Positions 27,772-42,794 of a DNA stretch of 52,467 bases are shown here, piece by piece. Below the pieces are notes generated by a model that did no database searches, had not been told where the DNA came from, and saw only the letters and a list, made by a program, of their open reading frames with translations. The position numbers were made by a program, and so were the translations under genes. The DNA is from an uncultured Lachnospiraceae bacterium. Lineage in GTDB: Bacteria > Bacillota > Clostridia > Lachnospirales > Lachnospiraceae. Numbering within the stretch: the first letter of the stretch is position 1; each line of letters opens with the position of its first letter. The stretch covers positions 1 to 52,467 of the forward strand of contig CACYTU010000018.1 of NCBI GenBank assembly GCA_902777355.1, written 5' to 3'.

Positions 27772-27929
27772 ATGATGTAAAGGTCAAAAGCCAGGAAAAG
27801 GCTCTGAGTCTCGTCAATATGCACATACAACCGCAGGACCATTGCGCAGCTCCGAAGGAGATGTTGCGAGGTGTTTGTGCATATTGACGAGACGGATTAT
27901 CTTTAACCACCTTTTGACCCCGACATCAT
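27772..27929 (+). mobile_element. MITE-like element, copy A1 (158 bp)
   Basis: The terminal inverted repeats are ATGATGTaaaGGTCAAAAG on the left and the complement of ATGATGTcggGGTCAAAAG on the right. An internal palindrome GTCTCGTCAATATGCACA / TGTGCATATTGACGAGAC brackets a small CTCCGAAGGAG hairpin. It is flanked by the 3-bp direct repeat CAC. No coding capacity. This is the shortest of the complete copies, lacking an internal segment of about 26-45 bp found in the others. Confidence 0.85.
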
Positions 27930-28183
27930 CACATAAGGATATTACATTAGATTGCCGGAGAGCTCCGGAACAATACCGGCAGAGACATTACGTCCCGGCT
28001 TGAATTCAACAGTGACCTGCCTGCGTTTCCGCCAATCCTGAGTAAGGAAACGATTTTCAAAATACCCGAATACCCTCTTATATACTCTGTTTTAGTGATA
28101 AGACAGAAAACAATGATGTGTCCATCCATTAGCTGGAGCACGACATATTTAAAAATATTGTGGGAAAGGAAGGTTATAAAACT

Positions 28184-28408
28184 ATGGGAAAAAAATTATG
28201 GCATACATGGGAATGCTCATGATTATCGGCGGAGCCTTCATGCTGATCTATACACAGTTTGATTATTACAAAGACTGCTCAGGTGGACGTCAATTATCAT
28301 TCAATATCTGTGGACAAACAAATGACACTTGAAATCGTTGAATCAGCGATTAACGCGCATACGGATGCAGTACAAAAAGTCGATGGGCTTGATCAGAAAG
28401 CAACGTAA
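28184..28408 (+). pseudogene. decayed small membrane-protein gene
   Basis: GGAAAGGAAGG precedes an ATG at 28184 (MGKK). One base appears missing in the A7 run at 28188. The next frame reads MAYMGMLMIIGGAFMLIY (28198 on), a membrane helix, then YYK. One extra base near 28273 restores the first frame, which reads TAQVDVNYHSISVDKQ and continues to a TAA at 28406-28408. The two changes cancel, giving 75 codons in total. This suggests an inactivated or sequence-error version of a small secreted or membrane protein. Family not recognised. Confidence 0.45.
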
Positions 28409-28437
28409 TGTGATTGGTTGATTCGAGGAGGACAGAA

Positions 28438-28524
28438 ATGAAAAGGACACTTTCAAGAGCGATAGCACCCTCAACAGCACTGATGTTGTCATTCAAGCTT
28501 TTGTTTGGCACAGTTTGTACATAA
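28438..28524 (+). CDS. 28-residue signal-like peptide ORF
   Basis: A strong GAGGAGG site precedes an ATG that opens 28 codons: a basic start (MKRTLSRA) then a hydrophobic stretch (ALMLSFKLLFGTVC). It resembles an isolated signal peptide. It could be a truncated secreted protein or a real small membrane peptide. Its stop is 18 bases before the RNase Z start, so it may be translated with it. Confidence 0.35.
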   Translation: MKRTLSRAIAPSTALMLSFKLLFGTVCT

Positions 28525-28542
28525 AGAAAGGCGGTGATCATT

Positions 28543-29469
28543 TTGATAGATATTGTATTACTCGGAACGTCGGCACTGATTCCTCTGCCGGACAGGGCTT
28601 TGACTGCAGCTGTACTGTACTGTAGAGGGCATTCCATCCTGTTCGACTGCGGCGAATGGACACAGGCCGCGGCCAGGAAGGCAGGAGCATCCCTGATGCA
28701 GGTGGATATGATTGCCCTGACCCATTATCACGGCGACCATATTTTCGGCATGCCGGGTCTGATGCAGACTTTGTGCAGCATGGGCAGAACGGAGCCCCTT
28801 TACATCACGGGTCCGGAAGGAATGGAAGAGGAACTGGCACCTATTCTAAAGCTGGTGGGCTGGACTTCTTACGAAATCAGGATGATTGAAGTGCCCAAAG
28901 ATGGTCTGAAGCTTGCAGAACTGGATCCCGGCTGGCCGTCGGAAGCAATGCTGCATGCCTTTAAGACCGAGCACAGGATCTCAAGCCAGGGATATAGCTT
29001 TACCCTGGGCAGGCCCGGAAAATTCATGCCGCAGAAAGCCAAAGAACTCGGTATCCCCGTCAATCAGTGGGGACTCCTGCAGAAAGGAAACAGTGTCCGT
29101 GTGGGGGATATGACGGTCACGCCGGACCAGGTTCTGGGAGAACCCAGGAAAGGACTGAAGTTCGTCTTCTCGGGAGACACGGCTGTCTGCGATACACTTA
29201 TCGATGCGGCGAAGGATGCCGATCTTCTGATTGCCGAGGCGACCTACGGAGAGAACGGGCAGGCGCAGCTCGCGATTGACCACGGTCATATGAACTTCGC
29301 CCAGGCTGCTGCTGTCGCGTCGCGATCCGGCGCCAGACAGCTCTGGCTCGCCCACTATTCTCAGATGATCGAGGATCCGGAAATATATCTTCCCAACGCG
29401 GCAGAGATCTTCCCTGATACACATTGCGGTAAAGACGGCATGAGGACATCCCTGCAGTTCGAAAAATAA
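28543..29469 (+). CDS. rnz: ribonuclease Z
   Basis: The 308-residue metallo-beta-lactamase-fold endonuclease trims the 3' ends of tRNA precursors. The zinc-binding THYHGDH is at residues 60-66. A conserved N terminus (IVLLGTSALIPLPDR), FSGDT, an acidic/His motif DHGHM and LAHYS near the end complete the family pattern. The exosite region (about 150-185, PGKFMPQKAKELGIP) is typical of the short bacterial form. The TTG at 28543 is chosen over a GTG at 28534 because AAGGCGGTG is its ribosome site and family members begin at this point. A tRNA-Thr gene without encoded CCA, a typical substrate, lies 1.2 kb away. Confidence 0.92.
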   Translation: MIDIVLLGTSALIPLPDRALTAAVLYCRGHSILFDCGEWTQAAARKAGASLMQVDMIALTHYHGDHIFGMPGLMQTLCSMGRTEPLYITGPEGMEEELAPILKLVGWTSYEIRMIEVPKDGLKLAELDPGWPSEAMLHAFKTEHRISSQGYSFTLGRPGKFMPQKAKELGIPVNQWGLLQKGNSVRVGDMTVTPDQVLGEPRKGLKFVFSGDTAVCDTLIDAAKDADLLIAEATYGENGQAQLAIDHGHMNFAQAAAVASRSGARQLWLAHYSQMIEDPEIYLPNAAEIFPDTHCGKDGMRTSLQFEK

Positions 29470-29753
29470 AGCTCTGATAAAAGCCGGGATATTGCGGTGA
29501 ATTGATCACAGTATTCCGGCTCTGCTGTGTGCGGAAGAATTAAGCGTTCTTTTTCCGTGTTCTCAGAAAAGGAGAAAAAGACAGGATTTATCATGTGATT
29601 AAAATTCAGTTCTCTTTTTCACACAAACTGCTTTGCCATGCGGATACAGGTAATCAGTGTAATCTTTTGCGATGTCATCAAAAAATAGATAAAGGGATGG
29701 ATTTAAAAAATCGGTGAGATGAAAAAAGGAAGATAATTATTATTTATAATAGT

Positions 29754-30002
29754 ATGTTGTCAGGGGCAAAAGGCAGGTAAGTGAAGTCTGTCTCGTTAAT
29801 GTATACAAACGCTTTGGGAACGCTCTCGCTCTTCCTCACTGGAAGCGGTAGTAAGGGCGCTAAAAACAAACCAGCGCCCAAGTACCTGACACACAGCATC
29901 TCCTTCGGAGCTGCGCAAAGGCTCTGCAGCTAAAGGCTCTGCAGCTGTTTGTACACATTGACGAGACTCTGATCCATCATGTATTTTTGTCCTTTACATC
30001 AT
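29754..30002 (-). mobile_element. MITE-like element, copy A4 (249 bp, reverse, diverged)
   Basis: It begins ATGTTGTcaggGGCAAAAGG and ends GTCCTTTACATCAT, the reverse orientation of A1-A3. The inner palindrome GTCTCGTTAATGTATACAAA / TTTGTACACATTGACGAGAC is shifted in sequence on both arms compared with A1-A3. The central GCATCTCCTTCGGAGCTGCG is the reverse of the A1 centre. It is flanked by the 3-bp repeat AGT. The remainder of the 29470-30095 gap is AT-rich with no gene. Confidence 0.78.
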
Positions 30003-30012
30003 AGTATTGGAG

Positions 30013-30099
30013 ATGACCCCAAAAGAAAAGGAACTGAAAGAAAAAGGAATGCAAGAAAAGGGACTGCAAGAAAAATGCTTGAAAGGAATGAGAAGATGA
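30013..30099 (+). CDS. possible 28-residue Lys/Glu repeat peptide coupled to DUF1810
   Basis: The ATG after ATTGGAG opens a peptide of KEKGMQEKGLQEK type. Its TGA stop overlaps the start of the next gene as ATGA. The coding sequence is itself a 15-18-bp degenerate minisatellite. It may be a real coupled upstream ORF or simply a repeat that happens to stay open. Confidence 0.28.
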   Translation: MTPKEKELKEKGMQEKGLQEKCLKGMRR

Positions 30100-30542
30100 A
30101 TAATATGGATTATAATCTGGAACGGTTTAAAAGCGCTCAGCAATACGACTATGGCATTGCTCTTCGTGAGATCCGCAATGGCAGAAAGACAAGCCACTGG
30201 ATGTGGTATATCTTTCCGCAGGCAAAAGGACTGGGACACAGCAGAATGGCGGAATACTACGGGATCAGCAGTATAGAAGAGGCCAGGGCTTATCTGGCTG
30301 ACCGGGAGCTTGGACCCCGGCTTCTTGAAATCAGCGAGGCTTTGATGAAGCTGGAAGAGAAAGATGCTGTTAAGATCTTCGGTTTCCCGGATGTTTTGAA
30401 GCTTTGTTCCTGCATGACATTATTTGCAGCGGTGACCGGGGAAAACTCTGTCTTCCAGAGAGTCCTGGATGCCTATTATCATGGCAGAAAGGATGATCGT
30501 ACACTTGAAATATTGAGCATGTGGGCCGCCGGACGATCATGA
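30096..30542 (+). CDS. DUF1810 family protein
   Basis: The 148-residue protein carries the DUF1810 hallmarks YNLERFKSAQQYDYGIAL, SHWMWYIFPQAKGLGHS and YYGISSIEEARAYL, and has the usual family length. The function is unknown; members are soluble, helical and often encoded alone. The ATG at 30096 is chosen because AAAGGA lies 8 bases upstream. The longer frame from 29979 begins inside the MITE copy A4 and would add a basic repeat-encoded extension. Confidence 0.88.
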   Translation: MNNMDYNLERFKSAQQYDYGIALREIRNGRKTSHWMWYIFPQAKGLGHSRMAEYYGISSIEEARAYLADRELGPRLLEISEALMKLEEKDAVKIFGFPDVLKLCSCMTLFAAVTGENSVFQRVLDAYYHGRKDDRTLEILSMWAAGRS

Positions 30543-30754
30543 AAAGAATACCTTTTGCCCAAATCCCGACAAATCTCAGCTTATGAAAGCGTTTATCTGA
30601 TATACTTGTGGCTATAGGCGAGTACCCGCAAACATATATGATTGAACCATGCGGTGCACTGCCTCTTATATAGATGTAGTATTATACTGCTTCGCTTTGT
30701 AGAAGAGGAAAGCACATTGCAGAAGGCTGAAAGATAGGACAGGAGACAAAAGCT

Positions 30755-31468
30755 ATGATTTATACTGAACTGACAGAGAAGGCGATGAAGATTTGTTTCC
30801 AGGCACACAAAGAACAAAAAGATAAAGGGGGGATACCCTACGTTTTCCATCCCTTCCATGTTGCCGAACAGATGGACACAGAAACAGAGACCTGCGTTGC
30901 CCTTCTTCATGATGTGATCGAGGATACAGGCTGGACACTGAATCAAATAGCGGCGGAAGGCTTTCCGTCTGATGTGTTGAATGCGCTTGAACTGATGACA
31001 CACTATTCCGGGGTCCAATATCTGGATTATGTTCAGGAGCTCAGTGTCAATCCAATAGCCAAAAAGGTCAAAATGGCAGATCTGAGGCATAACAGCACAC
31101 GGGAACGACTGAAAAACTTTACGGAGAAGGATGTAAAAAGACTGAAAAAGTATTTGAATGCCCAGGCTATCCTGACAGGCGGGACAGCGGATTTGGAGAC
31201 CATGGCCCTGCGGGTCAGCAGGCCGCTGACGGATATGGACGGAAAACAGGCAGTCCTTGAGATTATTTATGAGCCGGATGGAAGAGTCAGGAGCTTTATT
31301 CTGAAAATCAATGCGGGCGAGGAGAAAGAAGAGAAAGCAGCGAAAGAAGATAGTGAAGGATCCATTCAGACGACTGAGGAGGTGAGTTTTCAGGACAGGA
31401 TCAGTCTGGTAAAGGGACTGGAAAAAAGAAATATTTCCGCCGCCCAGATCCGCGAACTGTTCGCGTAA
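30755..31468 (+). CDS. HD-domain ppGpp-hydrolase-like protein
   Basis: The 237-residue protein begins with an HD domain like the hydrolase part of RelA/SpoT and the MESH1/small alarmone hydrolases. His32 (FHPFHVA), His52-Asp53 (LLHDVIEDT) and Asp109 (KMADLRHN) are the expected metal ligands. No synthetase domain is present. A C-terminal tail (about 165-237) contains an acidic linker and a short helix with QIRELFA. It may degrade (p)ppGpp or a related nucleotide. The start follows ACAGGAGA. It is followed by a hairpin at 31511 that can end it. Confidence 0.85.
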   Translation: MIYTELTEKAMKICFQAHKEQKDKGGIPYVFHPFHVAEQMDTETETCVALLHDVIEDTGWTLNQIAAEGFPSDVLNALELMTHYSGVQYLDYVQELSVNPIAKKVKMADLRHNSTRERLKNFTEKDVKRLKKYLNAQAILTGGTADLETMALRVSRPLTDMDGKQAVLEIIYEPDGRVRSFILKINAGEEKEEKAAKEDSEGSIQTTEEVSFQDRISLVKGLEKRNISAAQIRELFA

Positions 31469-31510
31469 GAGCTGCTTTACATTACACGGGACACGGGCGT
31501 GCAATAATAA

Positions 31511-31560
31511 AGAAAAGCCGATGAATATTCCGGGATGTCCGGAGAATTCATCGGCTTTAT
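31511..31560. terminator. terminator shared by convergent genes
   Basis: AAAGCCGATGAAT pairs with ATTCATCGGCTTT, with an inner TCCGG/CCGGA stem. T runs are better on the minus strand, where it ends the sufC-sufB transcript. Confidence 0.7.
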
Positions 31561-31654
31561 GCGTGCATAATTGGTCTTGCGGATATTTGCGATTGACTGC
31601 TCTATGAGCAATGGTAATGTTTTGCTTCGCAGTCCATCAGAGCAAGCCAAAGCA

Positions 31655-31768
31655 GCTAAGACGGCTGCAGCTGAATTACTTCAACAAACCAAAACCGCTA
31701 AGGCGGCTGCAGCTGAATTACTTCAACAAACCAAAACCGCTAAGACGGCTGCAGCTGAATTACTTCAG
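31655..31768. repeat. 42-bp minisatellite containing the sufB stop codon
   Basis: The unit GCTAAGACGGCTGCAGCTGA + ATTACTTCAACAAACCAAAACC occurs at 31655 and 31697 (one change), with a third partial copy at 31739. The third copy includes TTACTTCA, the complement of the last Leu-Lys codons and TAA stop of sufB (31760-31762). Confidence 0.92.
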
Positions 31769-32695
31769 GAAGCCGTTGATGATCTGCTCCTCCGCTTCGG
31801 CCTCTGTAAGACCCAGAGTCATCAGCTTGATGATCTGCTCGCCTGCAATCTTGCCGATGGCAGCCTCATGAACCAGGGCTGCCTCGGTGCTGTTGGCCTC
31901 CAGTGAAGGCACTGCCAGGATGCGGCCATTGTCCATGATGATGGAATCACACTCTGTGTGGCCGCTGCAGGCGGCATTTCCCAGGATACACATGTCAAGC
32001 TTCTGGTAGGAATTGTCGCGGGCGACAGAGCGGGAGACAACGTCAGCGCTGGACCCGTCACCATTAAGTTCTACATTGTAGATGCTGTAGGCATCCTGGG
32101 TTCCGTGAGTCATCAGACGTTCCTGAACGACCAGGCGGGCACCAGCCTTGAGCTCGGCTTTGGTATCTCTCTTGGTGGAATCAACGCCCTTGATCTGGAC
32201 CATCTCCATCTCCATGGTGCTGTCTTCATCCATATAGACTTCCGTGCCGGGATTGAGCAGGCGCTTGCCGGTCCCGTCACCGGAGCCGTAGTGCTTCTCG
32301 ACATATTTGACCTTGGAGCCTTTGCCGACAAAGAAGCGGTGGATACCGTCATGCTCGGAATCCTGTGCGCCGCAGTTGTCGATGCCGCAGCCGGCGACAA
32401 TGACAACATCACAGTCCTCACCGATGTAAAAGTCGTTATACACGATTTCCTTGAGGCCGCTCTGGCTCATGACGACAGGGATATGGACGCTCTCGTTCTT
32501 GGTCCCGGGCTTGATCTTGATATCGATGCCCGAGCAGTTTTCTTTAGAAATGATATCTATGTTCGCAGTGGTATTTCTCATGGCAGACTCGCCGTTGGCA
32601 CGGATGTTGAAGGCTCCGCTGGGGACACTGTGAAGATCCGCAATCTCTTTGAGAAGCCTTTTCTGGATTTCATCTATCTCTTTAATCTGAAGCAT
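31760..32695 (-). CDS. sufB: SufB/SufD-like Fe-S cluster scaffold
   Basis: The 311-residue protein is the beta-helix scaffold partner of SufC, as in the two-gene SUF/SMS systems of anaerobes. It assembles iron-sulfur clusters. The C-terminal part shows ACSGHTECDSIIMDNGRI and VPSLEANSTEAALVHEAAIG followed by EAEAEEQIINGFL, all conserved in SufB. The N-terminal domain of larger SufB proteins is absent. The gene is 55 bases downstream of sufC. No sufS, sufU or iscU lies nearby, so the sulfur donor is encoded elsewhere. Confidence 0.9.
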   Translation of the reverse strand: MLQIKEIDEIQKRLLKEIADLHSVPSGAFNIRANGESAMRNTTANIDIISKENCSGIDIKIKPGTKNESVHIPVVMSQSGLKEIVYNDFYIGEDCDVVIVAGCGIDNCGAQDSEHDGIHRFFVGKGSKVKYVEKHYGSGDGTGKRLLNPGTEVYMDEDSTMEMEMVQIKGVDSTKRDTKAELKAGARLVVQERLMTHGTQDAYSIYNVELNGDGSSADVVSRSVARDNSYQKLDMCILGNAACSGHTECDSIIMDNGRILAVPSLEANSTEAALVHEAAIGKIAGEQIIKLMTLGLTEAEAEEQIINGFLK

Positions 32696-32750
32696 TTTGT
32701 GTTCTCCATTATTTTGTATTCATTAAGCTGCATGCCCGGGATTCTACCGG

Positions 32751-33500
32751 TCATTTTTTGGAACTGAGGACCTTGCAGGCCTCCACTGCGGAAGTGGTTC
32801 CGATCAGCGCGGGGAGGATTTCATCTCTGGGACCGCTGGCGTGGATCCTTCCGTCCCTGAGAACGACGATCTCATCGGCTATCTCGAGGATGCGCTCCTG
32901 GTGAGAGATGATCATGATGGAACTGTCATGGATCTGGGACCTCATTTTCTCAAAGACCTCAATCAGGTTCTGGAAGCTCCAGAGGTCGATTCCGGCTTCA
33001 GGCTCGTCGAAGACAGACAGCCTGGTGGCGCGGGCAAGAACAGTGGCGATCTCAATGCGCTTCAGTTCTCCGCCGGAGAGGCTGCTGTTGACCTCGCGGT
33101 TGATGTAATCTTTGGCGCACAGACCAACTTCTGCCAGATACTGGCAGGCTGCGGCCGGAGTGGTCTTTTTGCCGGAGGCCAGCCTGATCAGGTCGAAGAC
33201 CTGGATTCCTTTGAAGCGAACCGGCTGCTGGAAAGCAAAACTGATACCGGCTTTGGCGCGCTCGGTGATGCTTTTGTCAGTGATGTCCTCGCCGTCAAAG
33301 AGGATTCGGCCGGAAGTGGGCTTTTCAATTCCGGCGATAATTTTGGCCAGGGTGGACTTTCCGCCTCCGTTGGGGCCGGTGATCACGACAAACTTGTTGT
33401 CCTCTATCTTGAGGTTAATATCGTTTAGAATTTCTTTGTTGACAGAGCCGGTGCTGCTTTCCTCAGTGACACCGAAAGAAATATTTTGAAGTTCCAGCAT
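32751..33500 (-). CDS. sufC: SufC ATPase
   Basis: The 249-residue ABC-type ATPase powers Fe-S assembly on SufB. Walker A (GPNGGGKSTL, about 40-49), Q-loop (AFQQPVRFKGI), signature (SLSGGELKRIE), Walker B (LSVFDEPEAGIDL) and the H-loop (MIISHQERI) are complete. It is cytosolic, with no membrane domain. AGGAG precedes the ATG at 33500. It is followed by the SufB gene, giving a minimal sufCB pair. Confidence 0.95.
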   Translation of the reverse strand: MLELQNISFGVTEESSTGSVNKEILNDINLKIEDNKFVVITGPNGGGKSTLAKIIAGIEKPTSGRILFDGEDITDKSITERAKAGISFAFQQPVRFKGIQVFDLIRLASGKKTTPAAACQYLAEVGLCAKDYINREVNSSLSGGELKRIEIATVLARATRLSVFDEPEAGIDLWSFQNLIEVFEKMRSQIHDSSIMIISHQERILEIADEIVVLRDGRIHASGPRDEILPALIGTTSAVEACKVLSSKK

Positions 33501-33544
33501 GTTTATTCTCCTGAATGTTGGGCTCCCCGGAGGGAACAGGTGCT

Positions 33545-33650
33545 TGGTGGTCTATTTATTCTTTATCGCGCAGAACCCGGAACCTCATGGCAGCCGCGGG
33601 ACAGGCGCGAAAAAAGAGCTTGTTTCATCGCGCAGCATACGGATTCTTAT
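33545..33650. repeat. family E dispersed repeats, copies E3 and E4
   Basis: TTTATTCTTTATCGCGCAGA (33553 region) and GTTTCATCGCGCAGCATACG (33622 region) are two degenerate copies in tandem. They lie in the 230-base gap between DUF134 and sufC. Confidence 0.4.
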
Positions 33651-33730
33651 TACAGCCGCATGATACGTGCCTATAAAATGGAAACCTGCTTTATCTAAGT
33701 GGAACCTGTTTATCAAAGTGACACGGATGA

Positions 33731-34081
33731 TCAGGTACGGTCACAGGGTGACTTGATGCAGTCGCTTCTGCCGCCGGAGCAAAGTTCCCAGCGCCCTCCG
33801 GAAATATGCAGCTCTTTTCCCAGGACCAGGGACGCGGCGACTTTTTTCCGGGCAGATTCACAGATTTCGGTCACGGTTGTTCTGGAAATATTCATCTGCT
33901 TGGCGCATTCGCTGTGCGTGATACCTTCAAAATCCACAAGCCTCAGGACTTCGAATTCATCGACTGTCAGGATGATCACGTCAGCCCCGCCCGCCTCATC
34001 GGGAGAAGGGCTGTGGGAGGGCACAAAAGTATTGAAGGCCGGCATATGGCAGATGCGCCGGCTTTTCTGTGGTCTGGCCAA
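33731..34081 (-). CDS. DUF134 (UPF0251) DNA-binding protein
   Basis: The 116-residue protein matches UPF0251: ARPQKSRRIC at the start, then ILTVDEFEVLRLVDFEGITH and the helix-turn-helix HSECAKQMNISRTTVTEI, then ARKKVAASLV and a C-terminal ISGGRWELCSGG. The family resembles sigma-70 region 4 and is thought to bind DNA; targets are unknown. The start is a TTG at 34081 with AAGGAGGTG directly upstream. A much longer frame from 34231 lacks support. Its place next to sufCB may be coincidental. Confidence 0.85.
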   Translation of the reverse strand: MARPQKSRRICHMPAFNTFVPSHSPSPDEAGGADVIILTVDEFEVLRLVDFEGITHSECAKQMNISRTTVTEICESARKKVAASLVLGKELHISGGRWELCSGGRSDCIKSPCDRT

Positions 34082-34117
34082 TGGGCACCTCCTTATACTC
34101 ACTCTTTGCTTTGATTC

Positions 34118-34170
34118 TACATCGCGCAATAGCCGTGACTTAAAACAGTCGTGGGGCATGGGCGCAGAAA
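34118..34170. repeat. family E dispersed repeat, copy E5
   Basis: CATCGCGCAATAGCCGTGAC is followed by CAGTCGTGGGGCATGGGCGC, matching E1 (14353) over most of its length. It lies just upstream of the DUF134 gene. Confidence 0.5.
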
Positions 34171-34372
34171 AAGATATCGCTTGCTCATGCAGTACCCGGG
34201 ACTTTACAAAGAACCGTGGGTCCACACGCAAAAAGAGATCAGATTTCCTTGAACTGCCTGCGGTAACAGAGAAAATGTTTCCGACATAAGTCGATTATAG
34301 AGGGCGGAGAGCGGGTTTGTCTACTCTAATTTAATGCGGGATTGTATCTGTATATATACAGTGTTTAATAGT

Positions 34373-34430
34373 GAATTGCAGCGGAGCTGCAGAAGCGGAA
34401 TTGCAGCAGCGGAGTTGCAGAAGCGGGATT
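34373..34430. repeat. short minisatellite (GAATTGCAGCGGAG type)
   Basis: GAATTGCAGCGGAGCTGCAG, AAGCGGAATTGCAGCAGCGG and AGTTGCAGAAGCGGGATT are imperfect 24-30-bp repeats. The 790-base gap 34082-34869 contains no gene, only this tract, family D and E repeats and a terminator. Confidence 0.65.
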
Positions 34431-34440
34431 ATATGTGCAG

Positions 34441-34526
34441 CATTGCGGGAGCGCCAGAGCGCGGAGCAATGCGTTGTTTATTCATACATGTTTGCGGGCA
34501 CCCGCCCATGGCCACAAGTATGTAAG
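34441..34526. repeat. family D dispersed inverted repeat, copy D3
   Basis: It contains GGGAGCGCCAGAGCGCGGAG, then TTTATTCATACATGTTTGCG and the returning arm CCACAAGTATGTAAG. The first part matches, in reverse, the copy at 36665. Confidence 0.55.
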
Positions 34527-34700
34527 AAGCAGCGAGGAAAGCGGCCGCAAATGCCGAGCTCGCTCAGGCATTTGCGGACATTTTCCGAGCGCCAAACATG
34601 AGGAAGAAGCCACACAAGGACACCAATGTGTCCGCAGTGGGGCGGGATTCCGAATGTTTGGAGCGGGCTGAGAGCGTCGAAGACGCGACAGCACGCGTAG

Positions 34701-34750
34701 CTTCTTACATGTGAGTCTGTGAGCCATGCTCATAACCACAAGTATGCAAA
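34701..34750. repeat. family D dispersed inverted repeat, copy D4
   Basis: CTTCTTACATGTGAGTCTGT is paired with ACCACAAGTATGCAAAG. It is 170 bases from D3. Confidence 0.45.
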
Positions 34751-34756
34751 GAACTA

Positions 34757-34797: not shown

Positions 34798-34869
34798 AGG
34801 AGCAAAGGAAATTTATATTGATGATTTTTTATTTCCGTGATTATTTACTCAATGATCAATTGAACGACC

Positions 34870-36210
34870 TTATTTGATGATCGATGAATCGAGCAGGAGA
34901 TCGCAGTCCACGATGCCTTTCACACCGGAGACAGTGCCCACGGCGGAAAACTGCCACAGATCAAACTGCTTGGGAGGAGAGATCATATCCGCCCGGAGCC
35001 AGATCTTTCTGTCGAAGATATTGTTTCCCCAGTAGGCGTACCAGGTAGAATACTTTTTCAGTTTGGATGCGTCATAGTAGCACTTCAAATAAGACAGATT
35101 GAAATAATAACCCGCACGTCGTCCCGCTCTGGTGATCGTGTCGCAGAAGACCTGAGTCATAGCGGTGATGCTGGAGCGGTTGGGCCTTGCGCCATGTTCT
35201 CTGGCATATCGCATGGAATCGTCTTCCCAGTCGTAATAGACCGGCAGGTTGAGATTGTACTTTTTGATCACGCGGAGGCAGTAGTTGGCTTCTTTGATCG
35301 CCTGCTGCTTTGTGAAGGCATAACTGAACCAATATACGCCCACACGAAGACCTGCAGCTTTGGCCTTTTTGATGTTGGAGTAGAAGTATTTGTCTACATC
35401 GCAGTCTCCGAAGCCGGCGCGGATGATGACTGCCTTGACACCTGAATCCTTGACCTTCTTGAAATCGATATTTCCATTGAACTCGGAGACATCGATCATG
35501 TGCGTGTATTTTTTGGAGTTATTGTATGCGTCGCCCAGCAGTTCACCGGTGATTTCATCAAAGCGATATCTGTTTTTCCCAATCCGCCAGGGGCCTGTCA
35601 GAACCTGGCCGTAGGTGTTCTGAGCTTTGTTGCAGCTGGAATAATACTTCTTCCCGGAGACCTTGAACCAGCCTATGACCATATGGCCGTTAGAGTTAAA
35701 ATAGTACAGCTTTCTGTCTATCTTCTGAAAGCCCTTTTTGAGGGCGCCCGCATGCGGCTTGGAAGCAGGATCGAGATAATAGTAGTATTTTCCGATTTTG
35801 CACAGTCCTGTCAGGATTTCTCCCTTTCCCTTGTATCCCTTCCGAACGCTGGCGTAATAGACCTTGCCGTCGACCTTGAAGAATCCGGTCTTCAGATATC
35901 CCTTGGAATCAAAATAGTAGGTCTTCTTTTTGTATTTGACGAAGCCCTTCCTGTACTTTCCGTTAGGAGCCTGAATACGATATCCACCGTCGAACTTGAC
36001 CCATTTGAGATCATCTCCGGATGCCGCACTGACTTCTGCCTTTTTTTGATCGACAAAAGCGGAGCCGTCCTCTCCGGAAGAGGCGGTCAGAGATCGAGCC
36101 GGCCCGTTTTCCCTTGTCCGCACGGATGCGGATGCGGAAACACCTGTCATGCATATAATGAGGGTGATGAGAAGGACAACACTGATTAATTTGCGAGAAA
36201 GTTTTTTCAT
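34870..36210 (-). CDS. secreted GH25 lysozyme with wall-binding repeats
   Basis: The 446-residue exported muramidase has a signal peptide (about 1-28). A run of about six choline-binding-type repeats follows (roughly 70-225: YKKKTYYFDSKGYLKTGFF, FQKIDRKLYYFNSNGHM). The GH25 domain (about 236-446) cuts between MurNAc and GlcNAc. Active-site acids are visible as Asp240 (HMIDVSEFNG), Asp327 and Glu329 (YYDWEDD). AGGAGATATC precedes the ATG. It stands alone between terminators. The shared repeat type with the NlpC/P60 protein (14448) points to a common wall ligand. It likely acts in wall remodelling or lysis of competitors. Confidence 0.92.
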   Translation of the reverse strand: MKKLSRKLISVVLLITLIICMTGVSASASVRTRENGPARSLTASSGEDGSAFVDQKKAEVSAASGDDLKWVKFDGGYRIQAPNGKYRKGFVKYKKKTYYFDSKGYLKTGFFKVDGKVYYASVRKGYKGKGEILTGLCKIGKYYYYLDPASKPHAGALKKGFQKIDRKLYYFNSNGHMVIGWFKVSGKKYYSSCNKAQNTYGQVLTGPWRIGKNRYRFDEITGELLGDAYNNSKKYTHMIDVSEFNGNIDFKKVKDSGVKAVIIRAGFGDCDVDKYFYSNIKKAKAAGLRVGVYWFSYAFTKQQAIKEANYCLRVIKKYNLNLPVYYDWEDDSMRYAREHGARPNRSSITAMTQVFCDTITRAGRRAGYYFNLSYLKCYYDASKLKKYSTWYAYWGNNIFDRKIWLRADMISPPKQFDLWQFSAVGTVSGVKGIVDCDLLLDSSIIK

Positions 36211-36404
36211 GATATCTCCTGGTTTTGCTTCAAGGGTGAACCGGATTCCGAAAGAACAAAGAACTGTCAGGAGTAAAACTCAAAACTGCAGGCACATGTG
36301 TGATCGGAACAAACAGCTGTCTTTCGTTTAATATTTCCCTTATGGAACTGCTGCGGTTTTCCGTCCCGGGTCATAATTCATATGAACGTAATTCACATGA
36401 AAAA

Positions 36405-36440
36405 AGAAGCCCGGCAAAAAGACCGGGCTTCCTTTTTATT
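36405..36440 (-). terminator. terminator downstream of glgCD
   Basis: GAAGCCCGG pairs with CCGGGCTTC with T runs on both sides. It is about 290 bases beyond the glgD stop on the minus strand, and no gene lies between. Confidence 0.75.
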
Positions 36441-36664
36441 TACACTTTGAATACGGCTTTGTAAAAGGCCGGTGTGAATAAAATGCGCGGTCAATAAGAA
36501 TCTTTGCGGACGCGGGCAGAACCCGGGTCCCAAGGAAGCGCTATTGCCCCTTCTATTCACTATACTATGAACATGCTCCCCTTGTAAACAGAAAGAATTC
36601 ACAGAATAAACATATATTTATTCGTATGATCCCGGAAACGTTACATTTGGGGACATGATCCGGC

Positions 36665-36730
36665 GTTTACAAACATGTATGAATAAACTTCGCGCTGCTC
36701 CGCTCTTGCGGGCTCCCACATCGCTGTTTA
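36665..36730 (-). repeat. family D dispersed repeat, copy D5 (reverse half)
   Basis: The reverse complement reads GGGAGCCCGCAAGAGCGGAG then TTTATTCATACATGTTTG, matching D3. It directly abuts the glgD stop codon. Confidence 0.5.
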
Positions 36731-37840
36731 TTACAGAGTATCGCTGTGTTTGATGTAGCCGGGTGCATCTGCCTCTGCCAGAATCTTGTTCTCGTGTACG
36801 ATCTTGGCATATTTGTCGACAACCTGGTTCTGCAGTACGACGTTCTCGCCGATCTCTGCATAAGCCATGACGATGCAGCCCTTGAGGGAGGAGCCTTTTC
36901 CGATTGTGACGCCGCGGCCGATGACGGAATCTTCGATGGATCCCTTGATCTCGCAGCCGTTGGAGACGAGAGAGTTCTTGACATCTGCTTCATCATAGAA
37001 CTGGGTCGGGCAGGAATCGGAGGTCCTGGTGTAGATCGGCCAGTCTGTGCCGAACAGAGTAGCGGACTCGTCGACATCGATCAGGTCAAGGTTTGCCTTG
37101 TGATAGGTTTTCAGGCTCGTGATAGGAGCGAAGAAGCCATGGTGCTCAACAGCGCGGACATTGAGCTCGCCGCACTTTGCGTTGACGATGTTGGCCAGTG
37201 TGTAGACAGAGGATGTCTCACGTGCGGCAAACATCAGGTCGAGCAGGAGATCTTTCTTCATAACGAAGGACTCCATGAAGATGTCCTTGGTATCCTCGTC
37301 GCCAAGGTTTCTGGAGATTCCGGTGACCTTCTCGCCGTCAAGCGTGAGGGCGTTGCAGGTGGAATAGCCTTCCTTCGCGTCAAATACTTTGTGATACAGA
37401 AGAGTGATGTCCGCACCGGATTTCGCATGATCCTGGAGGAGCTCATCATAGTTCTGTGCAAAGACCATGCAGCTGGGAGCGATCACAACATACTCGCGGC
37501 TCTGACGGCGGATATAATCAATGTTCGAGAAGAAAGCATTGATGTTGGTGTTGTAGATCGGATTGACCAGGTCCTCATTGGGGACGATGATCTGGATCCT
37601 GCCGCGCTTGGAGTTGATGTTGTAATGACGGCCGGTGCCGATGTGAGCGACCAGCGAACGGGGTTTGGAGCTGATATAAACCTGAATGTTATTGATTCCG
37701 CTGTTGCTGAAGTTGGAGATCGGGAAATCGATCACACGGAATCTGCCGAGGAAGGAGAAAGCGCCGATCGGGCGGTAATCCTGCATGCCCTCTACCTTAT
37801 GCTCAGGTGAAGATGTTACGATACCAAATGCTTTTGCCAT
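36731..37840 (-). CDS. glgD: glucose-1-phosphate adenylyltransferase, GlgD subunit
   Basis: The 369-residue protein is the regulatory partner of GlgC in ADP-glucose synthesis for glycogen. It shares the sugar-nucleotide transferase fold (RVIDFPISNFSNSGI near residue 35 and a left-handed beta-helix from about 280, EIKGSIEDSVIGRGV). The N-terminal nucleotide loop GGRGxRL of GlgC is replaced by SSPEHKVEGMQ, so it is unlikely to be catalytic on its own. In Firmicutes GlgD forms mixed tetramers with GlgC. The start has a G-rich ribosome site and lies 14 bases after glgC. Confidence 0.93.
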   Translation of the reverse strand: MAKAFGIVTSSPEHKVEGMQDYRPIGAFSFLGRFRVIDFPISNFSNSGINNIQVYISSKPRSLVAHIGTGRHYNINSKRGRIQIIVPNEDLVNPIYNTNINAFFSNIDYIRRQSREYVVIAPSCMVFAQNYDELLQDHAKSGADITLLYHKVFDAKEGYSTCNALTLDGEKVTGISRNLGDEDTKDIFMESFVMKKDLLLDLMFAARETSSVYTLANIVNAKCGELNVRAVEHHGFFAPITSLKTYHKANLDLIDVDESATLFGTDWPIYTRTSDSCPTQFYDEADVKNSLVSNGCEIKGSIEDSVIGRGVTIGKGSSLKGCIVMAYAEIGENVVLQNQVVDKYAKIVHENKILAEADAPGYIKHSDTL

Positions 37841-37854
37841 TTTATTGTCCCCCC

Positions 37855-38991
37855 TTACACATCCTGCGCCTGCAGCAGGATTTCTTTGCTGTCGGCGCTG
37901 CCGATGACAGCACCTGCGGCAATCTTCACATTGTCAGCGACCAGAGCCCTTGTGACGACTGCACCGTCTCCGACGACAGCGCCGGGCATCAGGACAGAAT
38001 CAATGATCTGAGCGCCATTTCCGACAGTTACGCCTGTGAAGATGACCGAATTCTTGATCTTGCCGTCAACTCTGCAGCCCTGTGTGATATAGGCGCGGTC
38101 GATGTCGGCGTTCGGTCCGATATAGGCAGGCAGACCCAGAAGGCCGGTTCCGTCTTCTGTGTAGATCTTCCAGGTGGGATCATCGAGGTTCAGTTCGCAA
38201 TTCTCATCGAGAAGGTCCATATTTGCCTCCCAGAGAGAATCGATGGTTCCGACGTCTTTCCAATATCCCTCAAACTTGAAGGCAACGAGCTTGTCGCCGC
38301 TGTTCAGCAGAGTGGGGATGATGTTCTTTCCGAAGTCATGATCGGAATCAGGATCATTCATATCCTTCACCAGCAGCTCGCGGAGTCTGGGCCAGGAGAA
38401 AATGTAGATACCCATCGACGCAAGTGTGCTGCGGGGATTCGCGGGCTTCTCTTCGAAATCGATGATGTTGTCGTTTTCATCCGTGATCATGATACCGAAA
38501 CGGCTGGCCTCTTCCATGGGAACAGGCATAACTGCGATTGTGGCTGCCGCGTCTTTTTCCTTGTGGCAGTCAAGCATCTTGTCGTAATTCATCTTGTAAA
38601 TGTGATCGCCGGAGAGGACAAGCAGATATTCGGGATTATAGCTGTCGATGAAGTCTATATTCTGCGTGATGGCATCTGCTGTTCCACGGAACACTTCAAG
38701 GCCGGAATCAGCTTTCTCGCGGGGAGTGAGAACGAAGACACCGCTGTCCTTTGTGTCAAGGCCCCACAGGCCGCCCTTTGCGACATAGCTGTTGAGCAGA
38801 ACGGATTCGTACTGGGTCAGAACCCCCACTACATCAATTCCGCTGTTGGCACAGTTGCTGAGGGGGAAATCGACGATGCGGTATTTTCCACCGTATGACA
38901 CTGCAGGCTTTGCCACCTTGTTGGTGAGATCATGCAGACGACTTCCCCGACCGCCGGCCAGGATCATTGCTAACATTTCAGTTTGTTTCAT
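37855..38991 (-). CDS. glgC: glucose-1-phosphate adenylyltransferase, catalytic subunit
   Basis: The 378-residue enzyme makes ADP-glucose from ATP and glucose-1-phosphate. The nucleotide loop [40 protein letters not shown] and FEEKPANP are all present, and a hexapeptide beta-helix follows from about 285. The gene begins the glgC-glgD pair. No glgA, glgB or glgP is in the window, so the remaining glycogen genes are elsewhere. The upstream 780-base gap carries a family C structured element and no gene. Confidence 0.96.
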
Positions 38992-39467
38992 GATGAGCCC
39001 TCTCTTTCCTGAAATTGAAGGAACTGTTCAAACTTCCCTTTAAAAATGACGGATAGGTGCCGGTCTGCTGCTGATGACATCCATTTGAATCCCATCCGCA
39101 GAACTGAAGAGGGTCTAGAGAACAATTCCTAAGCTACGCAAAGAATCTTCCGCTGCTGCCAGACCTGAACAGTGTCGGCTCCCCGGATTATTCAACCGGC
39201 ATAGAATCCTTTGAAAGACCGGAAGGTGCTTTCATGATGATTCTGCCGCCCGGCCGGCTGTGATGCCCGGCTCCTGTCAGGGCGCCCGGAGAAAGCGGCT
39301 CTGCCTTTGGTCCTGCAGACGGAGGTTCCATGTGCGTCAGGTGCTGACGCACATACAAATGTCTGACTGGAGTGATCCGCAATCAGACTGCAACTTATTC
39401 ATATTGTACAGGATTGAGGCGTTAAAGTAAATAATCTCTGTAATTTTGCATAAGAAAAATCCTTCTG

Positions 39468-39650
39468 ACGCTACTGTCCACGCCCTATCGAAGGCGTGGA
39501 CATGTAACGACGCGTTTGGCGATTCCAATGCGCTTACGCGCCGCCAAACGCCGTACAATTCGGGTTTTCGCGGAAAAGCCGCGAAAAACACCTCGAATGT
39601 CCGCCTGACTTTGTATTAGATAACAGCAGGCTGTAACGTTATTTCTAAAA
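39468..39650 (+). repeat. family C three-hairpin element, copy C2
   Basis: Hairpin 1 is TGTCCACGCC/GGCGTGGACA (39477-39504). Hairpin 2 is GCGTTTGGCG/CGCCAAACGC with ATTCCAA at its opening and an inner GCGC stem (39513-39552). Hairpin 3 is TTTTCGCGG/CCGCGAAAA (39563-39588) followed by CACCTCGAAT. A CTGTAACGTT-like tail closes it. The other part of the gap 38992-39771 is featureless apart from the terminator at 39673. Confidence 0.65.
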
Positions 39651-39672
39651 CACACCCGGTTGAGGGCGTGCA

Positions 39673-39721
39673 TGAAAATGGCGAAAACCCCATTGTGAAT
39701 CACACGATGGGATTTTCGCCG
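39673..39721 (-). terminator. terminator of the repeat-rich lipoprotein gene
   Basis: GGCGAAAA...CCCAT pairs with ATGGG.TTTTCGCC over about 17 bp. On the minus strand it is followed by ATTTTC. It lies 51 bases after the stop codon. Confidence 0.65.
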
Positions 39722-39771
39722 TAAAAGTCCTGGGGTTCCCGCTGAAACCGCGCGGAAAGGCCGGACACTGT

Positions 39772-40536
39772 TTACTGAATACTGCTGACCATTGCCGCCA
39801 GTCTCTCGGCATTGAGTCCGAAATCTTCATCTCCGCCGAGGCCTTCGGCAACGATACTGAAATACATATCGTCCACTGTCCAGATGCTCTTCGATGCATC
39901 ACCTTCCCTGTTGCCAAAGCAGGTCACTTCAATTCCGTTGACATCCTCAGTCCAGGTGTTGGCATATTCTGTGTAATCTCCGGATATGTCGCCTTCTTCG
40001 GCATAGGTACTGTTACCCTTGCGGACTGTCAGGGCGCTGGCAGGGTATTCCAGACGGGCTTCTGCAATGCCGTCCATGCAGCGGTATGTCCTTTCAAAAT
40101 TTTCTCCCAGATCAATGCCGGGATCCTCTGCAATCACAAAGCTGTCGATGCCGGCTCCCTTCGCTGCTTCTTCGGCGCTTTCCACATCGCTCCAGGGATT
40201 GGCGAGGCCTGTGATCTCTTCAGCAGCAGCGCTTGCAGCCGTCGCAGCGATTTCTGTTTCAGCAGCGCTTGCAGCCGTCGCAGCGATTTCTGTTTCAGCA
40301 GCGCTTGCAGCCGTCGCAGCGACTTCCGTTTCAGCGGCGCTTGCAGCCGCGACAGCGCTTTCTTCTTCAGCAGCACTTGCCGCCATTGCAGTGCCCTCAG
40401 TTTCAGCAGCATTCTCCTCCACCGCGGCGGCGGGCTCTTCTTTCTGCCCGGCAGAGCTGCCGGAACTGCATCCTGCAAGCATTGCCGTAAGCATAACCAC
40501 AGCAAGGAACATAGGTAAAAAGACTCTCTTTTTCAT
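39772..40536 (-). CDS. lipoprotein with Ala/Glu repeat linker
   Basis: The 254-residue protein has a signal peptide with lipobox LAGC (Cys at about 23). A linker of 11-residue repeats (ASAAETEIAAT, about 45-107) is encoded by a 33-bp minisatellite. A C-terminal domain (about 110-254) begins GLANPWSDVESAEEAAKGAG and contains NREGDASKSIW. I recognise this C-terminal arrangement from uncharacterised Lachnospiraceae lipoproteins but know no function. AAGGAGG precedes the ATG at 40536. It stands alone, and MITE copy A2 is 27 bases upstream, where its promoter should be. Confidence 0.78.
   Translation of the reverse strand: MKKRVFLPMFLAVVMLTAMLAGCSSGSSAGQKEEPAAAVEENAAETEGTAMAASAAEEESAVAAASAAETEVAATAASAAETEIAATAASAAETEIAATAASAAAEEITGLANPWSDVESAEEAAKGAGIDSFVIAEDPGIDLGENFERTYRCMDGIAEARLEYPASALTVRKGNSTYAEEGDISGDYTEYANTWTEDVNGIEVTCFGNREGDASKSIWTVDDMYFSIVAEGLGGDEDFGLNAERLAAMVSSIQ
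40218..40400 (-). repeat. in-frame 33-bp minisatellite in the lipoprotein gene
   Basis: About five units of GCAGCGATTTCTGTTTCAGC + AGCGCTTGCAGCC lie head to tail. The inner copies are nearly identical and the outer ones diverged, a pattern of recent expansion. Confidence 0.88.
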
Positions 40537-40562
40537 TTTTTTCCTCCTTAATTTTTAATTTT

Positions 40563-40746
40563 ATGATGTAAAGGTCAAAAGCCAGGAAAAGGCTCTGAGT
40601 CTCGTCAATATGCACATACAACCGCAGGACCATTGCGCAGCTCCGAAGGAGATGTTGCGGCGAGGATTGAGCGAGAGCGTGTCCAAGGTGTTTGTGCATA
40701 TTGACGAGACGGATTATCTTTAACCACCTTTTGACCCCGACATCAT
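40563..40746 (+). mobile_element. MITE-like element, copy A2 (184 bp)
   Basis: Termini and inner palindrome are identical in design to A1. The interior holds an extra GCGAGGATTGAGCGAGAGCG segment. It is flanked by TTT on both sides. It separates the lipoprotein gene from its upstream region. Confidence 0.85.
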
Positions 40747-40776
40747 TTTATTACAGACATATTTTAACATTATTCG

Positions 40777-40818
40777 AGACTCGCTCGCGAGTCTTGCGCG
40801 ATGAAGAATAAATACTCA
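40777..40818 (-). repeat. family E dispersed repeat, copy E6 (reverse)
   Basis: The reverse complement reads TTTATTCTTCATCGCGCAAG followed by the palindrome GACTCGCGAGCGAGTC, as in E1. It lies 30 bases from MITE copy A2. Confidence 0.5.
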
Positions 40819-40893
40819 CCATTTAATTGTTGAAGGTGGAACCCGCTGCCTTCAGACGGCGGGGGGGGAAAAAACTTTCTACAGTGTTTTATA

Positions 40894-42168
40894 TTACGGA
40901 AGGACATGTCTGGAGAGATGTTTGGGGAAGGGACCCTCCACCTTATAGGGAATCTCCAGCTCGTCCAGTATTTCCTTCAGGGCGCCTATATATTTTGTTT
41001 CCCGGAACAGCCGCATGACAGTAAGGGAAATTTTATCCCCGATAGAGGAGACCTCAAAAACCATGTGCCCATCGACAATGTAGTTAAAGTTCTCAATATA
41101 ATCCGCAACTTCTCCCCAGTCCATCTGGCCGGTGTAATTACACACGAAGGTTCCGTGTCTGGCGTCCTTGCCGGTGGAGGGATTGTGCTTTTTGATAAAG
41201 GCTCTTTTCTCTTTCAGACCTTTGATCTGATCCAGTTCATCATAGAGCCCGAAGAGCTTCCTCAGCTGGCCGGCCGCAACGCTGGGATCTGTCTGGAGGA
41301 TCATCAGTCCCCTGGTCATGGTTCCCAGCTTTTCCATATCCCATTTCAGCATGTCTCTGTCGTAATCGAAGAATGCGTGGCTGAGATAATCGCAGTGTGA
41401 ATTCGGTATGCCAAGGTCTTTCACAGGATTGTGGGCGGTCTCGCCTCCAATCACACGGATTTTTTCCGGCAGAACCCTGTCCAGAGCTTTTGCAATGACT
41501 ACAATGAAAAAGGAGACGACACTGTAGTCATTTACTTTGATAAAGTTAATGAGTGATTTCTGGTCAAAGGTAAAGACCAGATAGTTGGGATCTCTTTTAA
41601 AAGGGTTGTAAAGTCCTGTCAGGTAATCTTTGATCAGGACGGCAGGTTTCATGCCCGCATAGTAGTAAATGGGCTTTTCGTCCGGCAGAGCTTCCAAAGA
41701 GCATTCGGCGGTTTCATCAGGCAGGAGAGGACTTCCGGGCTTGCGGATTCCGGGAGCGTCCGGCAGAACGTGGTGTTTGTCGACAACATACTGGTAAACA
41801 GCAGTCATGATCCAGGGCTGGAATCCTTTTCCCCCGCAAAGTGAGTGACTCATATGAAAAAAGATATCATTGCCTTCGCATTCCACAAAAAGCAGGTGGC
41901 CGTTGACTCTTCTGCTGCCTGCTTTCGGGCATTTTTTTAAGACGGGCAGGACGACGACCTCCTTATGGTTGGGCCGCAGGACGTAGGCGCCGTCTTTGTC
42001 TACTGTGACATGGACCGCATAATAGGGGTACCTCTTGATCGCAGTGTTGACCGAGCGGCGAAGGATATCTATGTCGACGGGCTCCTTCATGGTTACGCGG
42101 GCGCGCATGACTGTGGAAAATTTTTTATCATCCTGATAAAGGCGGTAAGTGTTGATACTATATTTCAT
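40894..42168 (-). CDS. condensation-type (alcohol/CoA) acyltransferase-like protein
   Basis: The 424-residue protein resembles the chloramphenicol-acetyltransferase/condensation fold found in alcohol acetyltransferases and wax-ester synthase-like proteins. The N-terminal half holds the FHMSHSLCGGKGF motif at the usual HxxxDG position, with Gly-Gly in place of Asp-Gly. The C-terminal half has the typical VCNYTGQMDWG strand region before a second helix-sheet layer. No carrier domain, adenylation gene or exporter is adjacent. Substrates are unknown, and the altered motif could mean a different or lost activity. AGAGG lies upstream of the ATG at 42168. Confidence 0.68.
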   Translation of the reverse strand: MKYSINTYRLYQDDKKFSTVMRARVTMKEPVDIDILRRSVNTAIKRYPYYAVHVTVDKDGAYVLRPNHKEVVVLPVLKKCPKAGSRRVNGHLLFVECEGNDIFFHMSHSLCGGKGFQPWIMTAVYQYVVDKHHVLPDAPGIRKPGSPLLPDETAECSLEALPDEKPIYYYAGMKPAVLIKDYLTGLYNPFKRDPNYLVFTFDQKSLINFIKVNDYSVVSFFIVVIAKALDRVLPEKIRVIGGETAHNPVKDLGIPNSHCDYLSHAFFDYDRDMLKWDMEKLGTMTRGLMILQTDPSVAAGQLRKLFGLYDELDQIKGLKEKRAFIKKHNPSTGKDARHGTFVCNYTGQMDWGEVADYIENFNYIVDGHMVFEVSSIGDKISLTVMRLFRETKYIGALKEILDELEIPYKVEGPFPKHLSRHVLP

Positions 42169-42327
42169 TGATTCTGCCTCTTTTCGTATTTTTGTCTACA
42201 GATAAGTCCCGGCAGGTAAACCGGACTTCTTCTGCTTCCTGATTCATTCAGGACACAGGAAACATGATACCACATCAGTCATAATAAAGGAACTTACAGG
42301 CGTATAGAAACCTTTGGGATATCGTTT

Positions 42328-42487
42328 GGACGTTACTCGTCACACCCTGACCAGGTTGTGACGAGTAACGTTGCGTTCGGCGATTCCAATTTCGCTTCGC
42401 GAAACGCCGAACGCCCTAAAACTCCGGTTTTTGAGCGCCCCGGCGCTCAAAAACACCTCGAATCTGATGGCGGAGCGACTTGTAACG
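42328..42487 (+). repeat. family C three-hairpin element, copy C1
   Basis: Hairpin 1 is GTTACTCGTCACA/TGTGACGAGTAAC (42332-42369). Hairpin 2 is GCGTTCGGCG/CGCCGAACGC with ATTCCAA at its opening and an inner TTTCG/CGAAA stem (42373-42413). Hairpin 3 is TTTTTGAGCGCC/GGCGCTCAAAAA (42427-42454), followed by CACCTCGAAT. Outer pairings CTCCG/CGGAG and AACG...CGTT close the structure, ending GACTTGTAACG. Confidence 0.7.
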
Positions 42488-42565
42488 TTTGGACATATAC
42501 ACGCCCTTCGAGGGGGCGCGTACAGTAACAGTGCGCAATACCCGCAGGCGAGTCTTGAATTTCCA
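42488..42565. repeat. solitary family C hairpin 1 plus family E copy E7
   Basis: CACGCCCTTCGAGGGGGCGCG (42499 region) recalls the hairpin 1 loop of C2. It is followed by GTGCGCAATACCCGCAGGCG and AGTCTTGAATTTCC, a family E core. Three repeat families are thus stacked between 42328 and 42794. Confidence 0.4.
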
Positions 42566-42591
42566 ACTGTTTTTCGGAGAGAATTAATGAT

Positions 42592-42794
42592 ATGATGTAA
42601 AGGTCAAAAGCCAGGAAAAGGCTCTGAGTCTCGTCAATATGCACATACAACCGCAGGACCATTGCGCAGCTCCGAAGGAGATGTTGCGGCCCTTAGTACC
42701 GCTGCCAGCGAGGATTGAGCGAGAGCGTGTCCAAGGTGTTTGTGCATATTGACGAGACGGATTATCTTTAGCCACCTTTTGACCCCGACATCAT
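42592..42794 (+). mobile_element. MITE-like element, copy A3 (203 bp)
   Basis: It has the same terminal repeats and internal palindrome as A1 and A2. Its interior holds the longest insert among A1-A3 (GCCCTTAGTACCGCTGCCAG then GCGAGGATTGAGCGAGAGCG). It is flanked by GAT on both sides. It lies upstream of the YARHG gene. Confidence 0.87.

Follow-up and report, generated by a model that had tools for sequence, protein, structure and literature searches.

The short inverted repeats in a 52,467-nt contig of an uncultured Lachnospiraceae bacterium of the rumen (GCA_902777355.1, contig CACYTU010000018.1; hereafter the window, from genome G000, which is 84% complete) form a real family of miniature inverted-repeat transposable elements (MITEs), for which we give corrected ends and a corrected target rule, a probable partner type and a probable true length. 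The interior of these repeats is a conserved structure that is found far beyond the MITE itself. An earlier note, made from the letters of the window, had described four copies of a MITE-like element with inverted ends, inserted with a target duplication; all four (A1 to A4) lie where it placed them and the MITE itself is borne out, while the conserved interior goes beyond what that reader saw. We hold with good confidence that an IS1182-like transposase drives the MITE, that ends of the insertion sequence (IS) type surround a conserved hairpin head, and that the copies differ in length mainly through assembly joins. Two points lower this confidence: the evidence on assembly is indirect, and the distances of contig ends are mixed.

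The end pattern occurs 11 times in the window with at most 3 mismatches, compared with a mean of 0.57 in shuffled sequence, and throughout the window's genome there are 61 forward and 58 reverse matches with at most 2 mismatches, where a reversed pattern used as control returned none in either orientation. The repeats thus have inverted termini and many copies, lie far below the length of an autonomous element and, in the window, carry no transposase gene: open reading frames (ORFs) entirely within A3 and A4 do not exceed 50 aa, and a single 63-aa ORF overlaps most of A3. Target duplications were surveyed in 84 copies that had both ends within 2 mismatches (3 summed) of GATGTnnnGGTCAAAAG, 20-base flanks and a spacing below 300 bp or of 1,700–2,100 bp; the set includes three long-spaced copies and L132, which is from another family and perhaps a chance match, and leaves out copies truncated at a contig end as well as A4, whose ends exceed the mismatch limit. 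In 47 copies the longest exact direct repeat was 7 bp, in 16 it was 8 bp and in 2 it was 9 bp, whereas re-pairing the flanks yielded 2.45, 0.22 and 0.04 copies at these lengths, so that 65 of the 84 copies carry a repeat of 7–9 bp where 2.7 are expected; a further 3 copies have 4–6 bp and 16 have none. A chance 7-bp match at a spacing of 150–260 bp arose in 27 of 200,000 draws in the window, and A4, outside the survey filter, has ATAGTAT on both sides.

The dinucleotides at the borders place the edge of the element. An exact central 3- or 4-mer is present in 73 of the 84 copies; in this group 12 inner dinucleotides depart from AT, and 10 of them are identical to the outer dinucleotide on the opposite side. 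Because the mutated inner dinucleotides are mirrored in the opposite flank, the terminal AT belongs to the target, which is therefore AT-N3-AT or AT-N4-AT, with GATGT as the first letters of the element; its 17-bp end is GATGTnnnGGTCAAAAG and its target duplication is 7 bp, sometimes 8 bp. The element ends given previously had counted the terminal AT as part of the element and are corrected in Table 1. Similarly, the 3-bp duplications reported as CAC, AGT, TTT and GAT consist of letters that are present, but these are only the middles of the 7-bp repeats ATCACAT, ATAGTAT, ATTTTAT and ATGATAT; a 3-bp duplication was rejected on the 7–9 bp repeats together with the dinucleotide evidence. No palindromic target was seen around the duplications of 63 MITE copies: in the adjoining DNA 3.60 of 12 positions are complementary, compared with 3.41 after re-pairing (174 of 1,000 trials reach the observed value), and no copy has 9 or more.

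The family extends into related genomes and keeps to intergenic DNA. In the search of the genome and its relatives that the earlier note had proposed, an end match with at most 1 mismatch was found in 18 of 61 genomes (the window's own and 60 relatives), with two single matches outside the genus. The end plus the inner box was found in 50 stretches, whose named carriers comprise assemblies of uncultured Lachnospiraceae, RUG, UBA4380 and a bin from sheep duodenum, in a search from which the window genome's own records were possibly excluded. Of 27 copies tested in the window's genome, 26 are inserted outside ORFs of at least 120 aa, whereas of points placed at random in these loci 63% fall inside such frames, and the commonest setting is between convergent genes (10 of the 21 copies with both neighbours called).

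Matches to the end pattern spaced 1.9 kb apart pointed to loci L144, L145 and L148 in the relatives G028 and G026, where an autonomous partner with the same ends is present. L144 and L145 have the MITE ends (one mismatch at one end) and encode one transposase each, of 552 or 546 aa; their target duplications are of 7 bp (ATATTAT) and of 8 bp (ATGATTAT). The full-length element that the earlier note suggested looking for thus exists in relatives, and its view that an element without an ORF depends on a transposase acting in trans gains support. The transposases of L144 and L148 contain the Pfam domains DUF772 and DDE_Tnp_1_6 above cut-off, and among NCBIfam models IS1182 scores best (E 1e-36 to 1e-39), at 126–136 bits compared with a cut-off of 270. 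Where the earlier note knew no named family for these ends, they and the target rule can now be assigned to an IS1182-like transposase from related species. A divergent cousin, L273 in G075, has a 7-bp ATATAAT duplication of the form AT-N3-AT, read by eye. At E ≤ 1e-60 the transposase or part of it occurs in 7 of 62 genus genomes and, among 295 genomes sampled from the order, in 4. Two other candidates were set aside. A 602-aa IS1182-type transposase in the window's own genome (G000:C46), than which no closer partner was found there, has no such end in the preceding 750 bp, and its contig stops just past the gene; in G069 the IS elements differ in their ends, although these are related, and two copies read by eye show 6-bp AT-N2-AT repeats.

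Nearly the whole interior of the MITE forms one long hairpin, the tip of which is a multi-helix head of ~110 nt with a GNRA mini-loop. The full element folds far better than its shuffles (z = −9.5 for copy L247 and −4.7 for A4). An alignment of 12 MITE copies shows double compensatory changes in 8 of 80 pairs, a count that 6 of 500 shuffles reach, and 17 compensatory cells, which none of 500 shuffles reaches. In an alignment of 12 heads, whose structure was taken as the fold of one row minus the failing pairs, both sides are changed in 12 of 34 pairs compared with 4.1 in shuffles (0 of 500), while by the count of pair types alone the heads do not exceed shuffled alignments (208 of 500). With 67 heads from seven genomes, in an alignment fitted to the covariance model and therefore leaning towards it, 30 of the 34 pairs show double changes (0 of 500 shuffles), in 512 cells compared with 137 after shuffling. 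The loop of the mini-hairpin is GNRA in 67 of 67 heads (GAGA, GAAA, GGGA, GCAA, GCGA or GGAA), a count that a model trained on GNRA heads possibly favours. The head thus displays the compensatory base-pair changes of a structured RNA. No Rfam family matched a head at its gathering score; the matches below it were to plant or animal microRNA hairpin models, at best with E 4e-5 and 46 of 137 bits. The head is apparently an undescribed, old folded motif, and a literature search, to which subscription papers were mostly closed, returned no paper recognised as treating the MITE or the head.

Weak matches in relatives without GATGT ends led to heads in other surroundings. The covariance model found heads in 24 of 62 genus genomes (E ≤ 0.01), twelve of which have 10 to 29; these counts are lower bounds, since few candidates per genome were scored. 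Of 392 genomes sampled from the order and searched at E ≤ 0.001, 59 carry heads, the window's genome among them; every one of these belongs to the window's family, and they are spread over 29 of 174 genera. By its named carriers the head-bearing family is Lachnospiraceae. A search of plasmids, phages and viral contigs gave no convincing match, its sole row covering 32 bases of Rhodococcus at E 0.6. Outside the MITE, heads occur in other repeat families or as solitary hairpins. Among the 67 heads, the arms that directly adjoin the head pair at 7 or more of 10 positions in 52 copies, compared with 2.9 when re-paired. These arms are specific to the copy in G016, G073 and G030 (shared in 0 of 19, 0 of 8 and 0 of 4 copies) and partly shared in G002 (3 of 13); families of arms exist in G022 (6 of 12, with GGTACGCTGACTC as outer ends) and in G031 (7 of 9, outer ends GGCTGTCGCATTAT, with GGCTGTC ends). 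Counting the GATGT family of the window, at least three repeat families with different ends carry the head.

The head is also inherited in place. Seven head loci are orthologous between G086 and G123 and their heads are nearly identical, and the head has thus been inherited without moving in these species; in places the head would be old and vertically inherited. In two of these pairs, L403/L405 and L409/L412, the arms differ but pair within each species (14 and 12, and 15 and 15, of 15 positions), compared with 9 and 4, and 9 and 9, when paired across species. Four of the other loci have nearly the same arms and one is intermediate. A naive count of pairs over the seven loci speaks the other way, with 6 compensated, 21 one-sided and 54 broken. 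Of 14 pairs of neighbouring heads within 2 kb among the matches listed, 12 are back to back (−,+), none has the (+,−) arrangement and two share a strand (P 3e-6 at 1/4), in a hand-picked set that excludes MITE copies and counts one orthologous pair once. Such back-to-back heads, 45 to ~1,600 bp apart, were observed in G016, G002, G073, G030, G338, G389, G427, G381, G390 and G086; the same-strand exceptions are G084:C6:33027-33315 (L382, tandem) and G424:C31:52927-54477.

The ends, the duplications and the relatives' elements with the same ends and target rule are read from the DNA itself, and on these we base a mechanism in which the copies would be non-autonomous transposons of about 230–250 bp. 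A DDE transposase of the IS1182-like clade, encoded elsewhere, would recognise the 17-bp ends and catalyse their movement, and the same clade would presumably act in the window's genome; the element would insert at AT-N3-AT or AT-N4-AT, and gap repair would leave the 7- or 8-bp duplications. The MITE most likely arose when IS-type ends came to flank a head-bearing hairpin, which transposition would then have multiplied. Several observations weigh against this account. Nineteen of the 84 surveyed copies have no exact 7–9 bp repeat, and L148, the IS of the MITE-rich G026, lacks a matching duplication and has a doubled right end. At E ≤ 1e-60 the partner transposase was not found in the window's 84%-complete genome or in the copy-rich G008. 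A second box, CTCGTCAA, lies in both MITE ends 19 bases inside box 1 (positions 39–46 of the AT-inclusive end). The IS ends lack it and have only the end box in common with the MITE; the immediate driver of the MITE may for this reason be another, unseen element. Finally, comparison of the joined flanks of the 84 copies with the collected loci gave no base-precise empty site: of four junction-spanning matches, three are the copy's own locus and one is a usable unoccupied locus. The empty-site comparison proposed in the earlier note thus delivers one MITE locus that is empty in a related species, but not to the base, the intergenic DNA there being too diverged for alignment. That the repeats are ordinary REP/ERIC-like palindromes of no transposon ancestry would agree with their being palindromic, short and mainly intergenic, but we consider it extremely improbable given the exact target duplications of 7–8 bp and the full-length elements with the same ends.

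The series of lengths A1 < A2 < A3, previously put down mainly to internal deletions, is most likely an artefact of assembly. In 39 of 50 junctions a piece of 90–99 bp is left from one element end, where the null expectation has a mean of 6.9 and a maximum of 19 in 20,000 draws; the rule holds in bp and not in structure, and in three assemblies, and the left piece is 95 bp in A1, A2 and A3 alike. These 50 junctions leave out uninterrupted copies, copies of at least 215 bp, L017, L241 and L244 (filter) and copies without the CTCTGAG mark. Because the junctions cluster 90–99 bp from an end, most of the apparent deletions are probably scaffold joins from short-read assembly. Six of the ten contig ends inside the element in the window's genome likewise lie 95–101 bp in, and N gaps fall within 5 of 60 aligned copies. 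A rumen study that we take to be the source of RUG375 reports the use of MEGAHIT and idba_ud and mentions 150-bp reads for at least one sample, and the assembly of the window's genome may differ from it; the default largest k of idba_ud is 100. The uninterrupted diverged copies are about 210–250 bp long (208 and 227 bp in relatives), and A4, which had been thought older, is indeed uninterrupted at 245 bp and more diverged. The alternative is that the deletions are real: the hairpin tip would be unstable, and every copy would shed a piece of its own as it transposes or later. Almost every near-identical copy does have its own junction, and in L028, L034 and L069, all of them diverged copies, the breaks misfit the artefact distance. 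Against the assembly explanation there also stand the 11 of 50 junctions that lie off this distance, one internal variant that is common to 15 copies of relatives, alongside three other shared breaks, and the other four in-element contig ends, which lie 146–192 bp in and not near 97. Some deletions may be real, since those 11 junctions misfit. As a general explanation we nevertheless judge real deletion unlikely, in view of the clustering of junctions and of contig ends and of the scant homology at junctions (0–2 bp, 4 in one). Where hairpin repeats of graded size are met in metagenome bins built from short reads, the gradation should thus not be taken for biology without long reads.

What the head does may be sought in RNA or in DNA. 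As a transcribed structured RNA, it would be a family-wide noncoding RNA that the MITE spreads as cargo, which is a serious possibility that we place somewhat below even; the compensatory changes, the GNRA loop in six variants, the preserved orthologues and the two of seven orthologous pairs whose arms have clearly diverged yet remain complementary within each species all argue for it. The head stems, on the other hand, are nearly pure Watson-Crick (31 G-U compared with 19 A-C among 2,034 cells), scans revealed no excess of promoters upstream of heads and no rule relating heads to a gene strand, and each genome has many paralogues. As a single-stranded-DNA or cruciform hairpin, the head would serve a DNA-binding protein of replication, recombination or transposition, a proposal that we rate only slightly lower. 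The Watson-Crick-rich stems and the lack of a strand rule relative to genes fit such a hairpin, as does the back-to-back order of the hand-picked neighbouring pairs among the matches listed. The arms are less clear-cut: in the 52 copies they have 29 G-U compared with 13 A-C, and 7.1% G-U in an RNA fold, which weakens the case against RNA. As for a partner protein, a search for the HUH Y1 transposase of the REP/RAYT model gave no match in 12 of the 24 head carriers, which are drafts of 63–99% completeness, nor in 8 of the 38 genomes without heads. RAYT/Y1 was accordingly rejected as the driver of the head, the carriers without a match including G016 with 20 heads and 96% completeness.

Table 1 Features of the MITE family in the window.
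Feature	Position	Strand	Basis or remark
Target duplication ATCACAT of A1	27767–27773 (left), 27928–27934 (right)		Flank comparison
MITE copy A1	27774–27927	+	Left 95 bp joined to right 59 bp; interior probably lost in assembly
Target duplication ATAGTAT of A4	29749–29755 (left), 30001–30007 (right)		Flank comparison
MITE copy A4	29756–30000	−	Uninterrupted, diverged, 245 bp
Conserved head of A4	29805–29952	−	By pattern; covariance-model match 29805–29918
Target duplication ATTTTAT of A2	40558–40564 (left), 40745–40751 (right)		Flank comparison
MITE copy A2	40565–40744	+	Junction 95 bp from left end
Head of A2	40614–40695	+	Broken at junction
Target duplication ATGATAT of A3	42587–42593 (left), 42793–42799 (right)		Flank comparison
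MITE copy A3	42594–42792	+	Junction 95 bp from left end
Head of A3	42643–42743	+	Broken at junction
Short 62-bp relative of the MITE, related ends	45623–45684	+	Exact target duplication of at least 4 bp not found

Other features were observed in the window and its relatives. The 62-bp relative is followed by two more copies of a motif resembling the right end of the MITE, TTTTTGCCCCCGACATCCCGTTT (window 45623–45740), and further palindromic stretches that lack MITE ends were noted by eye at 27640–27700 and 42330–42490. A tRNA gene lies at 27294–27366 (−), ~400 bp from A1, and a Clostridiales-1 RNA (RF01699) at 34524–34706, with 81 bits over the full model length. The N-terminus of IS1182-type transposases (DUF772, 120–170 aa) also occurs within open frames of 1,055–1,562 aa, at G000:C3:95536-95919 (L176) and in 12 other genus genomes; a Pfam check of four of these frames showed it as a fusion with a glycosyl hydrolase family 2 (beta-galactosidase-like) enzyme.

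MITE interiors are usually regarded as filler. Here the head is more widespread than the transposon ends, and the repeats carry a conserved structure, which raises the question of what role a family-wide hairpin tip plays and why repeats with different ends carry it. We give an even chance to the view that in the head one bacterial family possesses a new kind of conserved nucleic-acid structure, with a fixed multi-helix core, tandem-GA-like and GNRA motifs and copy-specific palindromic arms, and that this structure acts as a shared functional organ of otherwise unrelated repeats; perhaps it helps hairpin elements to replicate, excise or survive.

Among known systems, the relatives' elements resemble the IS1182 family in the DUF772 and DDE_Tnp_1 domains of the L144 and L148 transposases, in their best model and in a length of ~1.9 kb, and differ in their scores, which lie under the curated cut-off. 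The IS1182-family member IS1272 is described, in the accessible part of one study (PMC5678879), as replacing a stem-loop target, whereas the MITE shows AT-N3/4-AT duplications of 7–8 bp and no palindromic target in 63 copies. Correia, RUP and ERIC are bacterial MITEs, and REP/REPIN palindromes go with RAYT. With the bacterial MITEs our repeats share short length, the lack of a long ORF, inverted ends, a target duplication, high copy number and a mostly intergenic position, but their interior is a conserved structure also present outside the MITE. With REP/REPIN the head shares a conserved hairpin, many copies and paired inverted copies, and it differs in being a multi-helix structure of ~110 nt with copy-specific arms and in that half of the 24 carriers yielded no Y1 transposase. 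Finally, it resembles the structured RNAs of Rfam in its covariation, GNRA loop and multi-helix fold, and stands apart from them in matching no family at gathering score.

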